NCBI GenBank assembly: GCA_039545315.1
Contig: BCIM01000003.1
Location: 797,799 to 861,798, forward strand
Source: Kondoa malvinella
Lineage: Eukaryota; Basidiomycota; Agaricostilbomycetes; Agaricostilbales; Kondoaceae
Direction of reading: 5' to 3'
DNA length: 64,000 nucleotides
Made by a program: the position numbers and the translations under genes. The stretch's first letter is position 1; each line of letters starts with the position of its first letter. Positions 21,688 to 64,000 of the stretch are shown one piece after another. The notes below the pieces were generated by a model, which was not told the DNA's origin, did not search any database, and was given only the letters and a program-made list of their open reading frames with translations.

Positions 21688-24347
21688 TCACTTCTTGCAG
21701 TCTATAGGCTTCTCTCCCAACGTCTCTTCCAGCATAACATCAAAACCAAAGCGACACCAAGGACCTCTGACCACTTCCAACAACTCTTGCCTTACAGCAG
21801 GATCAAACTTGTCCCAAGAGGAGAACACATTGCTCTTCCTGCTTTTGTATGCTTCGGCTTCCCCATTGAGCTCAACGACACATGCGAGTTGACCCAACGA
21901 AGGAAGATGTTCTTGAGGTAGGAGAAAGTTGAGCAGTGACATAAGAGTTGGAATAGGCGAGGAGCGCAAATCCTCGTATCGAACTTCATGCTTCAACAGC
22001 GGAACAGCAGCCCAATAAGTATCGTGTTCGACATATCTGCACAAGGATGAGCCCTGGAATTCACAACTCATGAGCGACATACCCTCGAGCGAGCTTGAGC
22101 ACGCTGTGTCGCTGATCTCGAGTAGATCCCAAATTTGCAATACCTTCAACTCGGCCCTATAGACTCGCTTAATCGGCGAATTTGTATCATAGATGATCAC
22201 GACCCACCTCGTGATCATGAGTCTGTCGGTAGTTCCAATACGAGAATACTTCATCCAACGGATTGCGTATGAGATGAACCGCGCGATCGAATTGTCGCCA
22301 GTATTGGTCTCCCATCACATTGTCTGTCGCGTAGCTAGACAGATCAGGATGATGCGTTTTGCGAAGAAAGGGGTCTGGCGGCGAAACGATGAGAAGTAGC
22401 CTCGAACGAGGCAAGACGTGGCTTACCATCTGAACATTCGCCATGAAAGGTCTCAGACAGTGTCCTGTCGCAATACACCGAGCTGGTTCGATAAGTCGTC
22501 GCTCGTTCTATCAGACCTCGGATGTAGCTGTTGCCGGACCCTAGTATGATCGCGTTAGCATGCCTCTATCAGACACGAAGGCATCTCACTCGGATAAGTA
22601 GCAAGAGCAGTGGTCGGAATCTGATCAGGATAGAAGGTAGTATTGATAGCGCCAGTAGGGCAACTTGCATTCGTAAGCGCATGAAGTTGCGAGCCCCAAA
22701 GACCAGCTTCGAGGACGACTTTCTCTGCCGGAAGGTCGACAGCCATTGCGCTCAATTCAGGTACTTCATCCGAACTCTCCCAATCTTCCATTGTAGCAGA
22801 TACGCTAATATGTAGTCCGGCCATGTATAAACCGGCGATTGAAGCGATGATGACTGGTATGACGAGAGGAAGACCATATTGAAGAAAGTACGAGCCAAGT
22901 GGTCGACGAGACGGTTTCAAGTCATCAATTTCTTCCATTGGATCTTGCTTGCGATTGCGGACAGGCGATGATAAAGGTGAGACTAGAAGAGCTTCTTTAT
23001 CTCCCGCGTCGAAAGAGCTGTCACTGTTGAGCGTTTCCATAGATTGGCTGAGCGTGATGCCTGTCTTCTTTGGTGTGTCCCAACTTCGGTTCATCTTGAT
23101 CCAAATACCGCTAAACACCCACATAACGCCCAGTACTGTCAGAGGGAAGCCGTATGCATGAGCAAACAGGAATCAGTCGTAGGTGCTGCTTGCTTACATC
23201 CGCCAGGTCCTAAAGAGCCAAAGTTGCCAAATGCACCGGCATTCAAAAGGATGGAAAAGAATTGTCGACAAGTCATGATGGTCGACGAAGTCGATGCGCC
23301 GAAAGCTGCAATAGTGTTGAGAAGGACGATGAGACCAATAGCTGATGTCGCGGAAAGCAAGATGATGTCCCCGACCAAAGCAGGTGATCGAAGCATGAGA
23401 CTGATACTTGGACCAATGGTAGTGAAGGAAGCCAAAGAGCCTAGGAAAGCAATACCAGCAGCGAAGGCATTGACGTAGATCTAGCATTCGTGTCAATTCT
23501 TTGCACCATCGGTTTCGGGCAAAGCTCACCATCTGATCCAATACAGGACTGTCAGGACCAAAAGGGTTGGAACTGTCAGGGTTCTTGCCAAATACCTTCT
23601 CTTGGGTGGTCGAAGTCAAGCCATCAAAGCCGAGATAGCCCAAAAGCAGCAAAGTACCGATAACGCCAGCCAGCCAAGCATCATCTCCGTCCGCTTTGAG
23701 CGTGTCTGCGTTGGGTCGAGAAAAGAGGTAAGTAGCGATACCGAGGATGACGACCCACTAGGTACACGTCAGAACATGCGGATGAGACGGTCGAACGACT
23801 TACAGCTGCAATCCATTGTTTAGCGGAATGTTGCTTTTTGTAGACCAGTCGACCAATGATCAAGACAGGCACCATCTTTGCACACTTTGCCAAAGCTTGA
23901 CTAGTGAAACCCACATAGCGTAGCGCTTCATATTGGCAAAAGGTAGACAAGAAGTTGAGAACAGCTACTGCAGCGTAGGCATAGATCGAGCTGGCGGGTT
24001 TGAGAGCTGAAGAGAGCCTGGTAGGTCCAGTAGAGACGTCGTTGCGTTTGAAGTAAGCTTGGGTTAACGCGATGCTGAGACCGACACAGGTGCTGAAAAT
24101 TCGATTGCAAAGAACGAGAATAGGAGCTGCGGACTTGATCAGCGGGATTAGATGGAGCGGAGTAGTGCTTTACCTGAGGTGAACTTCTCATCATTAGCAT
24201 AGACGCCTTTGAGGATCTTCTCTTGCAGCAGTCCATCTGCGATTGGACTCAGCGCACGCAGACTTGGGTCGGACGCAACGTACAGACTGAGTAGATGACG
24301 ACTAGGGCAGCGGCGTGGAAGCCTAGTGAGAGCGACGATTGGCTCAT
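21688..24347 (-). CDS. Fusion of SLC35B-type PAPS transporter and Golgi sulfotransferase
   Basis: Nine exons (24347-24284, 24236-24174, 24126-23804, 23757-23530, 23480-23198, 23135-22590, 22540-22427, 22374-22208, 22149-21688) total exactly 750 codons including stop. Residues 1-336 are a nucleotide-sugar/PAPS carrier of the SLC35B branch: YGLLQEKI near the start, GFTSQALAKCAKMVPVLIIG, GYLGFDGLTSTTQEKVFG, then FGASTSSTIMTCRQFFSIL and a last helix GLLGVMWVFSGIWIKM. The same exon continues, with no stop, through a Ser/Asp-rich linker to a helix (FLQYGLPLVIPVIIASIAGL). The sulfotransferase then shows a PAPS 5'-phosphosulfate loop TYPRSGNSYIRGLIE, KTHHPD, a 3'-phosphate motif LIRNPLDEVFSYW and RYEDLRSSP. 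SLC35 C-termini are cytosolic, so the extra helix would put the enzyme in the lumen. A PAPS substrate is inferred from the partner domain. Confidence 0.88.
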
Positions 24348-25702: not shown

Positions 25703-27350
25703 ATGAGCATCTCGCACACTTCAAGCAAAAATTTCCAGCTCCCAGAGGGTCACTTCCTCTTCACTTCTGAATCAGGTAAGTGCATCGCGCCGATATCATG
25801 CAAAAAATGTCTTAAACACGTTCTTGGAACGAATAGTCGGTGAAGGTCACCCTGACAAGATTTGCGATCAAGTATCAGACGCTATCCTCGACGCTTGCTT
25901 GAAAGATGACCCTTACTCGAAAGTCGCCTGTGAGACTGCCTCAAAAACTGGTATGGTCAGTCGAAACAGTCGCTATTCAGGGTATTCCTGTGATAATAGC
26001 AATTGTTGGGTTGACAGATCATGGTCTTTGGTGAAATCACTACTCGCTCTCCTCTGGACTACCAAAAGATCATTCGTGGAACTATTGAAAAGATTGGCTA
26101 CGACGACTCGTCCAAAGGTTTCGACCACAAGACTTGCAACGTTCTCGTCGCTATCGAGCAGCAATCCGTCGACATTGCTCAAGGTCTAGACCACGGTGAC
26201 ATTGAGAACCACGGTGCTGGTGATCAAGGCATCATGTTTGGTTATGCTTCAGACGAATCAAAGAACCTCATGCCCCTCACCATCACTTTGGCTCATGACC
26301 TCAACCGCGCTATGGCCGATGCCAGACGTGATGGATCGCTAGCTTACCTCCGCCCTGATTCCAAGACTCAGGTAGCGTTGCACTCTTCCGGGTCTAGTCA
26401 TCTCACTAAATAGTGTCCCTTCTATAGGTTACTATCGAATACAAAAAGGCACCAGACTCAGGAGCCGTCGTCCCAATTCGCGTAGACACCGTCGTCGTGT
26501 CCGTCCAACACTCTGACGATGTCACCACCGAACAACTCCGTAAAGACGTCAAGGAGCAAATTTGCAAAAAGGTCATCCCTGCCCACTTGCTCGACGACAG
26601 AACCATCTACCACATTCAACCTTCTGGTCGTTTCGTCATTGGTGGCCCTCAGGGTGACGCTGGTCTGACTGGCCGTAAGATTATTGTTGATTCGTACGGA
26701 GGATGGGGAGCTGTGAGTCCAGCAAGTTGTGAGATTGAAGAGTGACGCTGACATCGGGCTGTACAGCACGGTGGTGGTGCTTTCTCCGGAAAGGACTGGT
26801 CAAAGGTCGACCGATCAGGCGCTTACGCTGGTCGATGGATTGGTGCGTGCTGGAAAACTGTCTTCAGTTTGTGTCTGATAGGTGTGCATAACCGTCACGT
26901 TCAGCCAAGTCATTGGTCGCTGCAGGTCTCGCCAAGCGATGTCTCGTCCAGCTGTCATACGCCATCGGTGTTGCTGAACCTCTATCCGTCTTCGTTGACT
27001 CATGTACGCATCTTCCTGTCGCATAGCTACGTTTAGCTGATCTGTCATCAGACGGAACCGGATCAAAGAAGGACTCTGAGCTCGTCAACATCATCCGCGA
27101 GAACTTTGATCTCCGTCCTGGTGTGATGGTCAAGGAGCTCGATTTGCAGAAGCCTATCTACGCTCAGACCGCCTGCTACGGTCACTGTAAGCTTCTTTTC
27201 CGGAAAAGTCTGATCGAGTGCTGATCTCTCAATGTCCAGTCGGTAACGACAAGTACGTCTAATATGCTTCCACAGGAACAAGAGATGCTTATTGCTGCTT
27301 GTGCTCGCTGCAGATACACTTGGGAACAGCCCAAGAAGCTCAAGTTCTAA
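25703..27350 (+). CDS. SAM1: S-adenosylmethionine synthetase
   Basis: Nine exons sum to 396 residues, the normal size. They include [39 protein letters not shown], the [12 protein letters not shown] signature and [12 protein letters not shown]. The [30 protein letters not shown]-loop-like signature and NFDLRPG near the C-terminus are also present. The enzyme makes S-adenosylmethionine from methionine and ATP in the cytosol. Active-site residues of both signatures are intact. Exon 8 (27240-27252) is a 13-nt microexon encoding FGNDK around the intron phases. Start context is ACAAGATGAGC. Boundaries: 25703-25775, 25837-25955, 26018-26371, 26428-26712, 26767-26842, 26905-27003, 27052-27186, 27240-27252, 27314-27350. 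Confidence 0.96.
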
Positions 27351-61607: not shown

Positions 61608-64000
61608 ATGGCATTGATCAAAGCAAACGATCTAGTGTGTGAGCTATCATTCACACCTCTTACAAGTGTTCGCAGCTGATATTGACTGCAGTACGACACG
61701 CCACGGAACAATCGTCTGCTCTCTTTGTCTTTGATGGCTTCAGCTCGCAAGTAGGCGCAGTGCCCAAATCCACAAGCCACTTCAAGATTGAAACTCGAGC
61801 TGGTTCATCTGCCGCTGTTCTCGGTTACATTCGATCTTTGGGCGGAAAATCCTCTGCCGATGTCAAGCCCATTACAATCCTTTGCACGCCGACTTCCTTG
61901 ATCGAATTGACTGCTGTACTATCTGCTGCTCTGCCAAAGGTATCTGAAAGACCACCTTTGGTCATTCAAGTCGCTTGCTGTGAACCTGCAACTGAAGCAA
62001 AGCGAGACGATGAATTGCCTTCGCTACAACGTCTGCCTGCGGTTGGCGCTCTTTTAGCTGCTCTTCCATCCTCGAAAGTGCAAGGCAAGAACAATTACAG
62101 CCCAGCTGTGTTGCTATCTGGTGGTGCTGGCGAAGGTGTTCAAGAGATTGCTGCTGGTTTGAAGGCGGTTGATGGATTGGTTGCTAGAGGATCAGATGTT
62201 ATTCATGCATGGGAGGCAGTTGTAGCTGGTCAAGAGGTGTCCTCTACTTTGGCATCGGCTGCTTCGAATGGCATGGATATGGATTCAGCTAGCGAAAAGA
62301 AGCCTCTTACCGAAGCTGATGTCAAGTCTATCGTCAACACCGACTTCTTTGCATACCACGGTCCGGCCAGCCCAAGCAAAGTCATCGTCTTGCCCTCGTC
62401 TTTACATTCGGCCAATGCACTAGCTGCTTTATCGACCGCAACAGCTACCGGTCTGCTCATCGCACGGGTACTTCGTCCTTGGTCCGCTGAGCAACTCAAC
62501 GCCGCCATCCCTGCCTCAGTGAAGGAGGTTCACGTCCTCGAAGGCACCTTTAACGGCAAAGCATTCTTCTACGACGTCTTGTCAGCCGTTCAAGAAGGCA
62601 CCACTCCTCGCCGTGTCAGGACATTGACTCTCCCACCCAATGAAGTCTGGACTGTTGCTGACTGGAATCAGCGTTTCGCTCGTTGGGAAGAAGGAGAAGC
62701 CAAACCTGCTGCACCTTCCTCTCTCATCTCAGGCGATAGCAAGTTGGCCGTCTTCTGGGCTGGCGATGAAGGCAAAACTTCTGGGTTGGCCGATCGACTT
62801 GCTAGTCAATTCGCCAACCAAGGCGGTGTAGACACTCGTCTGCTCAATGAATTCGATAATTATTCTGGCAAGGATGGCGGATTGCAACGATCTGCTCTAC
62901 TCCTCTCGCCTCCTGGATCAACGCCAGCCATCCAACATTCGCTACAAGCTCTCGTCGAGACTTCTGCACCTGGCCTGCTCTTCTTGTCCTCCCCAGCATC
63001 CATTTTGGCAGCTTACAGTCCGCTCGTCACCGCCGACAAGGACACTCAAGTCATCTTCTCCAACTCTTCCTGGACACCAGAGGAATATGGCGAAAAGCTC
63101 AATGCGGCGGACAAGTCTACTTTGATTGCTCGTACTGGTGAAGGCAAAGTGTGGACTTTGGATGTCGCAAGCGTCGTCTCTGCTTCTGGCCTATTGGCAA
63201 GTGATGGTTTGGTCGAAGAAGCAGCTTTCTTCCTTCTATACTACTCTTCCATGCCTGCTGAAGAAGCTACTGCCACCATTGCCAAACTGCTCGGTCTCTC
63301 TCCAGCCGGTGGTGAATGGTCCTTTGAGGCTTTTAAGGGCCTTGTGGAACATACTCGCAAGGCATTGAAACAAATCAAGATGGTGCCTTATGAAGGTGAA
63401 GGTCAACCTGCCGCCGCAGCCGAAGTCGACACTGCCTCAGCAGAGAGCATCAACCCTCTTCCAGCTCATATCATGTCAAACGCTATTGGTCCAAACAAGC
63501 AAAAGAACTTCCCTGATGCTCTACCGACCGCTCCACCAGCTTGGCACATTGCTGCCAAACAGCTCCTCTTCCCTGAAGCTTACGGTACTCAAATTGATGC
63601 TACTCGACCTGATCTACCAGAAGAGAACTTTGTTCTTACCGTCACAGAGAACCGTCGCCTCACTCCACTCGACTATGACCGAAACGTCTTCCATCTCGAA
63701 CTTTCTACCGCTGGAACGGGACTCAAGTACACTGTCGGTGAAGCGCTTGGCGTACATGGTTTCAATGATGCAGATGAAGTACAAGAATTCTTGGATTGGT
63801 ATGGACTGGATGGGGATGCGATTGTTACACTGCCAGATCGAGAGCATGCGCACCTCAAGAGCGAGGCCAGAACCGTCTTCCAGATCTTCCAGCAGAATCT
63901 GGACATTTTCGGCAAACCTGGTAAATCATTCTATGAAGCTTTGTCGAAAGTCGCTTCGAACAGGGAAGAATCGAGGCATTTGCGTTTCGTTGGTTCAGCG
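61608..64000 (+). CDS. MET10: Sulfite reductase (NADPH) flavoprotein alpha subunit, 5' part
   Basis: A 31-nt first exon (61608-61638, MALIKANDLV) splices with a GTGAGC donor to a long exon open from 61692 to the window edge. The N-terminal half resembles the pyruvate:ferredoxin-like domain of fungal Met10 (LRHATEQSSALFVFDGFSSQ, LLSGGAGEGVQEIAAGLKAV). The start of the FAD-binding domain is diagnostic: AAKQLLFPEAYGT, LPEENFVLTVTENRRLTPLD YDRNVFHLEL, KYTVGEALGVHG, EARTVFQIFQQNLDIFGKPG. About 778 codons are present. The FAD/NADPH-binding C-terminus is beyond the window. The enzyme passes electrons to the hemoprotein that reduces sulfite to sulfide in sulfate assimilation. No truncation is visible inside the window. 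Confidence 0.93.

Follow-up and report, generated by a model that had tools for sequence, protein, structure and literature searches.

A predicted PAPS carrier and sulfotransferase encoded as one conserved polypeptide in Pucciniomycotina fungi

The DNA analysed here, a stretch of 64,000 nucleotides from Kondoa malvinella (hereafter the window), harbors on its minus strand a gene that starts with the codon at 24347, stops at 21688 and joins a carrier module to a sulfotransferase module. Both ends had been placed at these positions in a preliminary description made from the sequence, and the spliced frame bears them out. With canonical GT-AG introns, the gene comprises ten exons separated by nine introns of 46-62 nt and encodes 736 residues followed by the stop codon; the nine exons and 750 codons (749 residues) proposed earlier were not reproduced. 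Exon 1 (24284..24347) carries the start codon and the onset of carrier helix 1, and the carrier continues through exon 2 (24174..24236), exon 3 (23804..24126), exon 4 (23530..23757) and exon 5 (23198..23480). These include K123 and K126 on exon 3, equivalent to SLC35B1 K117 and K120, D195 and Q202 on exon 4, equivalent to D183 and Q190, and R298-Q299 on exon 5, where SLC35B1 has R276-K277. The last carrier helix, GLLGVMWVFSGIWIKM, opens with the final residues of exon 5 and continues in exon 6 (22590..23135), the joining exon, which encodes in addition a predicted cytosolic linker, an extra helix (helix 11, residues 408-426; 22819..22875), a predicted luminal stem and the start of the 5'-phosphosulfate loop. 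As previously claimed for this exon, it runs from the end of the carrier through the extra helix into the second module without a stop codon. Hydropathy and flanking charge predict helix 11 to be a type II signal anchor. The sulfotransferase module extends over exon 7 (22427..22540), with the remainder of the PRSGN loop (residues 502-506), C526 and C538; exon 8 (22208..22374), with K546 and H548 (22360-22352) and the 3'-phosphate loop LIRNPLDEVFSYW (22273-22235); exon 9 (22083..22156); and exon 10 (21688..22036), which encodes the C-terminus (RYEDL, C673, C715, C734) and the stop codon. The motifs TYPRSGNSY and LIRNPLDEVFSYW are both present exactly as first read.

Alignment with 34 relatives carrying both modules supports most of this exon structure. 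Seven of the nine exon junctions are gapless in 30-34 of these relatives: junction 1 in 30, junction 2 in 31, junction 9 in 32, and junctions 5 and 6, which flank the joining exon, in all 34. The two junctions that bound exon 8 (7 and 8) are gapped in every one of the 34, the window protein being a little shorter than its relatives in these places, and they are therefore less certain.

A search with the full chain retrieved relatives aligned over 99% of its length, with identities of up to 46% and a best E-value of 1.2e-190; such full-length matches rule out a chance open frame. Forty-three homologues were found with the full-length query. In 34 of them both modules are present, each aligned over more than 150 residues; these consist of 32 NCBI gene models and two open reading frames (ORFs) from other sources. 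One member, P0025, is counted by alignment length and Pfam label, its enzyme part aligning badly (12% identity). The 32 NCBI models span three classes of Pucciniomycotina, with representatives in the Microbotryomycetes (Meredithblackwellia, Rhodosporidiobolus, Sporobolomyces, Microbotryum, Rhodotorula, Phenoliferia and Pseudohyphozyma), in Mixia (Mixiomycetes) and in Atractiella (Atractiellomycetes). A close relative of the window organism is also in the database, as a 189-aa piece with 94% identity to the window protein (P0080).

The join is also crossed by ORFs of non-NCBI origin, which are probably unspliced, judging from their sources. Nine were inspected, and the seven selected for bridging helix 11 and the PAPS loop (P0002, P0031, P0040, P0047, P0048, P0052 and P0055) have no stop codon from one to the other; the stop between the modules that the preliminary description had envisaged for relatives is thus absent from them. 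The other two either start near the PAPS loop (P0046) or lack the motif (P0074). Carrier motifs are found in P0002, P0031 and P0040, one of three in P0047, and none in P0048, P0052 and P0055; P0040 terminates inside the PAPS loop, and three further non-NCBI ORFs (P0039, P0041 and P0205) stop shortly after helix 11. P0002 is a 757-aa frame running without interruption on a 2593-base contig, compatible with either a transcript or a gene free of introns. Because seven non-NCBI ORFs bridge the join and 34 relatives have both modules, an artefact of gene modelling is ruled out. The fusion of carrier and sulfotransferase is real as coding sequence and conserved: the single polypeptide first proposed for this locus is encoded by one frame in the window and recurs as both modules in 34 of the 43 homologues.

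Pairwise identities computed separately for the two modules are strongly correlated (r = 0.94, with none of 2000 permutations as high), as expected of one old fusion and not of repeated swaps, relatedness alone also raising such a correlation; 28 of the 35 fusions entered this comparison, the incomplete or irregular P0023, P0024, P0025 and P0031-P0034 being omitted. Rhodosporidiobolus microsporus has two fusion genes, P0009 and P0010, listed on contigs of equal length; their locus numbers differ by five, and they probably arose by local duplication.

Gene models with only one of the modules are also present among the relatives, so that either the fusion is missing from some species or copies, or some of the models are wrong. 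The carrier-only models P0035-P0038 (Rhodotorula, Meredithblackwellia) keep helix 11 and end soon afterwards. Two of these models were placed in the carrier tree, where P0038 (Meredithblackwellia) is next to the fusion P0028 (support 100/100) and P0035 (Rhodotorula) lies within a group of fusions (97/95); their nesting among fusions suggests enzyme loss, unless the models are truncated. The enzyme-only models are P0044 (Meredithblackwellia) and P0049 (Cystobasidium). The latter, from Cystobasidium minutum (Cystobasidiomycetes), has by eye an N-terminal hydrophobic stretch of its own and falls inside the fusion enzyme group of the sulfotransferase tree. Outside the subphylum, an ascomycete carrier from Chlorociboria (Leotiomycetes; P0113) terminates in a helix similar to helix 11, as do two kindred ORFs, P0205 and P0041. 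The tails of P0113 and P0205 (DAFWKIP or DAIWGTNP) look, by eye, like the beginning of the enzyme module. These three sequences may be truncated models of the same fusion, which could then predate Pucciniomycotina, or helix 11 may have preceded the enzyme.

One long frame could still give rise to separate working products, through an internal start in the linker (for instance at residue 353, the Met of SQSMET) or through alternative transcription, which would yield a type II sulfotransferase anchored by helix 11 and a carrier produced or processed separately. This arrangement would draw on the two in-frame Met codons of the window linker, on a helix 11 that could by itself act as signal anchor, and on the existence of the enzyme-only and carrier-only models; the linker is, however, devoid of Met in nine of the 35 proteins, and the uninterrupted frame of P0002 likewise argues for a single chain. 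We consider separate products unlikely.

The carrier module contains a UAA domain (PF08449) over residues 14-336, scoring 123.1 bits against a cut-off of 26.2 and covering positions 8-309 of the 311 of the profile (E = 1.7e-35), and its closest solved structure is human SLC35B1 (E = 4.8e-22). Functional residues of SLC35B1 were taken from PMC12267056. Seven of the 11 compared are kept in the window carrier (E33, Q113, K117, K120, D183, Q190 and R276) and four are changed (S118, R194, Q254 and K277); of the six nucleotide contacts described there, four are kept, K277 and Q254 being the ones that changed. The Arg276-Lys277 pair, which holds the alpha-phosphate in SLC35B1 (PMC12267056), is not present in the window carrier, where helix 9 has R298-Q299. 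The position of K277 is occupied by Gln in 12 of the 13 fusions compared, window included, and by Gln, Leu or Ile in ten sequences named B2 or near them, these names being automatic ones from the source records. A separate SLC35B1-like paralogue on contig 9 of the same genome keeps R276-K277. For the PAPS-transporter-like carrier first described, this difference from SLC35B1 at the Arg-Lys pair is indirect support.

The position of Q254 is Leu in all 19 of the fungal SLC35B2-like sequences compared, and Gln in ten other SLC35B2-like sequences and in the SLC35B1-like gene of the own genome; Leu is a possible marker of the fungal carrier type. In a carrier tree of 30 sequences, with carrier relatives taken as the best 120 of 485 proteins, P0033 removed and human SLC35B2 and SLC35B3 left out, 12 of the 35 fusions and six carrier-only sequences form one group of 18 (100/100). 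This fungal group is separate from SLC35B1 and the own-genome paralogue (99/98), with long branches and without a resolved join to the B2-named sequences.

If the carrier instead moved a nucleotide sugar or another adenine nucleotide, for example by exchanging ATP and ADP in the manner of SLC35B1, the enzyme would be fused to it for location only. SLC35B1 is indeed the closest solved relative, and of the four residues with which it contacts phosphate, three are kept (K117, K120 and R276), yet the fourth is the Lys replaced in the fusions and B2-named sequences alike, the genome already has its separate gene with Arg-Lys, and the fused partner is a PAPS-type enzyme. Moreover, according to PMC12267056, SLC35B2 imports PAPS and has substrate-binding residues in common with SLC35B1. 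A different substrate thus seems improbable to us. Less probable again is a degenerate carrier serving only to anchor and target the enzyme: several functional-site residues are lost in the fusion P0033, which deviates at K120, D183, Q190 and K277, but most compared residues are kept in the window carrier, conservation is higher in the carrier than in the enzyme (50-58% versus 40-49% identity between the window and 27 other fusions), and carrier-only models are nested in the fusion clade.

The C-terminal module is more distant from its known relatives. Its Pfam sulfotransferase matches are weak and below their cut-offs, and its match to the solved structures of cytosolic sulfotransferases is weak too; with a profile built from the C-terminal modules of six proteins, SULT1C3, Teg14 and StaL are matched at E-values of 4e-6 to 2e-5. 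The loops that bind PAPS are kept, with PRSGN of the 5'-phosphosulfate loop in 34 of 35 proteins and, in the 3'-phosphate loop, R577 in 32 of 34 and S585 in 33 of 33. K546 and H548 (KTH) are kept in 33 of 33 and may correspond to the catalytic Lys/His pair of the SULT enzymes. The SULT1C3 profile alignment does not place the KTH of the window on that of SULT, and the equivalence therefore rests on the motif. The predicted model of an enzyme-only relative has a fold like that of PAP-bound sulfotransferases, at 13-20% identity over the alignments shown; Foldseek gave TM-scores of 0.41-0.50, normalized to the query, among its best 11 matches, and a second aligner was clearer. An animal protein named sialate:O-sulfotransferase 1-like (P0077) matches with 31% identity over 56% (E = 1.5e-14) and is outscored by a bacterial one (P0072). 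In the sulfotransferase tree, built from 15 of the 35 fusions together with 26 of the 59 matches of the enzyme search, the animal sequences fall outside the fungal group. No WSC domain was matched in a Pfam scan of the window protein at E 0.1.

Over its best stretch of 19 residues, helix 11 reaches a mean hydropathy of 1.44-2.98 across the 35 proteins. Lys and Arg are more numerous before than after the helix in 31 of them and equal in four, and downstream of it six cysteines are conserved, each in 31-34 of the 32-35 proteins compared. N-glycosylation sequons after helix 11 number two in the window and are absent in 11 of the 35. The charge asymmetry and the six cysteines support a luminal enzyme and lend indirect weight to the location first proposed for it. 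Structure prediction, suggested earlier for the window protein, was run on the relative P0002: the whole-chain model displays the carrier, helix 11 (380-405) and the enzyme. With a pTM of 0.49 and pLDDT below 50 for the 36 residues directly after helix 11 and for shorter stretches up to residue 455, it therefore does not fix how the modules are placed. A cytosolic enzyme, using cytosolic PAPS while the carrier moves the product or something else, would suit the disordered stem of this model, the missing sequons and the high score of the bacterial P0072, but it is the least probable of the arrangements considered, given the charge asymmetry, the conserved cysteines and an animal relative (P0077) from the vertebrate WSCD1/WSCD2 family, which comprises sialate:O-sulfotransferases shown to be membrane-anchored type II PAPS enzymes of the Golgi (PMC9304399).

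The rest of the genome (19.1 Mb in 20 contigs) was searched for further sulfation genes. Loci of the APS kinase type, the PAPS reductase type and the inositol-phosphatase family, a family that includes PAP phosphatases, are present. The sulfotransferase profiles PF13469 and PF00685 had no match in the genome and missed the fusion itself, which makes them too blunt to indicate absence, and PF03567 matched nowhere, controls included. With protein queries, P0053 found no sulfotransferase in the genome and P0050 matched only two exons of the fusion locus, the positive control. Since these family searches are insensitive, it is a weak inference that the fusion would be the only sulfotransferase of this genome. 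No sulfation gene was recognised beside the fusion among the 20 Pfam-scanned of 47 chosen long window ORFs. On the strand opposite to the fusion gene, and roughly 1.4 kb upstream of it, the window encodes an S-adenosylmethionine synthetase N-terminal domain (25707-26186, plus strand). At its end lies a 786-aa frame truncated by the window boundary (61643-64000, plus strand), with a FAD_binding_1 domain and weak likeness to NADPH-cytochrome P450 reductase; this could be a P450 reductase or the flavoprotein subunit of a sulfite reductase.

Taken together, the gene probably encodes a bifunctional membrane protein of Pucciniomycotina, combining a Golgi PAPS importer and a luminal sulfotransferase in one chain. 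The N-terminal, SLC35B2-like module would carry cytosolic PAPS into the lumen of the Golgi, helix 11 would span the membrane and place the C-terminal sulfotransferase in the lumen as part of the same molecule, and the enzyme would transfer the sulfonate to an acceptor of the secretory pathway, most likely a glycan. We infer PAPS as the transported substrate, the luminal topology, the Golgi location and the sulfation of a glycan; since domains that are fused tend to share a function, the fusion supports the view that these fungal SLC35B-type carriers are PAPS carriers. Going further, the carrier might hand PAPS straight to its tethered enzyme and so fix the acceptor, a channelling that we hold to be possible, though doubtful; the fusion may equally just keep the two steps in one place. 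The same protein may even supply all luminal sulfation of these yeasts, because the blunt searches detected no other sulfotransferase in the genome.

In the Golgi, a transferase and the carrier of its donor are usually two proteins, and it is an old question whether they work as complexes; with a conserved single chain, the cooperation of carrier and transferase can be tested directly. If the fusion acts as proposed, secretory products of Rhodotorula, Sporobolomyces, Microbotryum and their relatives should be sulfated, a subject on which no work appears among the papers listed in searches of the open-access literature. Among the same listed papers, which leave most subscription papers outside their scope, no fusion of a transporter with a sulfotransferase is described, in agreement with what had been stated at the outset. 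The architecture is new to us, with both modules coming from known families. A channelling protein of this kind would be, to our knowledge, the first fusion of a transporter with a transferase to occur naturally in the SLC35 family.

Compared with known systems, the carrier resembles the PAPS transporters SLC35B2 and SLC35B3, also named PAPST1/2, slalom and PST-1, in its full-length UAA domain and, as in the B2-named sequences, in having no Arg-Lys pair; it differs from them by the extra helix, the C-terminal sulfotransferase and the Leu in place of Gln254. SLC35B1 (HUT1), the ER ATP/ADP exchanger, is the nearest solved structure and has most of the compared residues in common with the fusion, but it has the Arg-Lys pair of helix 9, and its counterpart in this genome is a gene apart. 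On the enzyme side, SULT1/2, StaL and Teg12 have the PAPS loops and, judging from the modelled enzyme-only relative, the fold of the catalytic core in common with the fusion; in contrast to them, the fused enzyme is low in identity, membrane-bound and probably luminal. WSCD1 and WSCD2 are approached through the name of the animal match, whereas the fusion has no WSC domain, is anchored by carrier helix 11 and groups apart from the animal sequences. The acetyltransferases of the CASD1/Cas1p type, in which a membrane part is joined to a luminal transferase-type domain, follow a similar logic with unrelated families and with an acetyl donor instead of PAPS.
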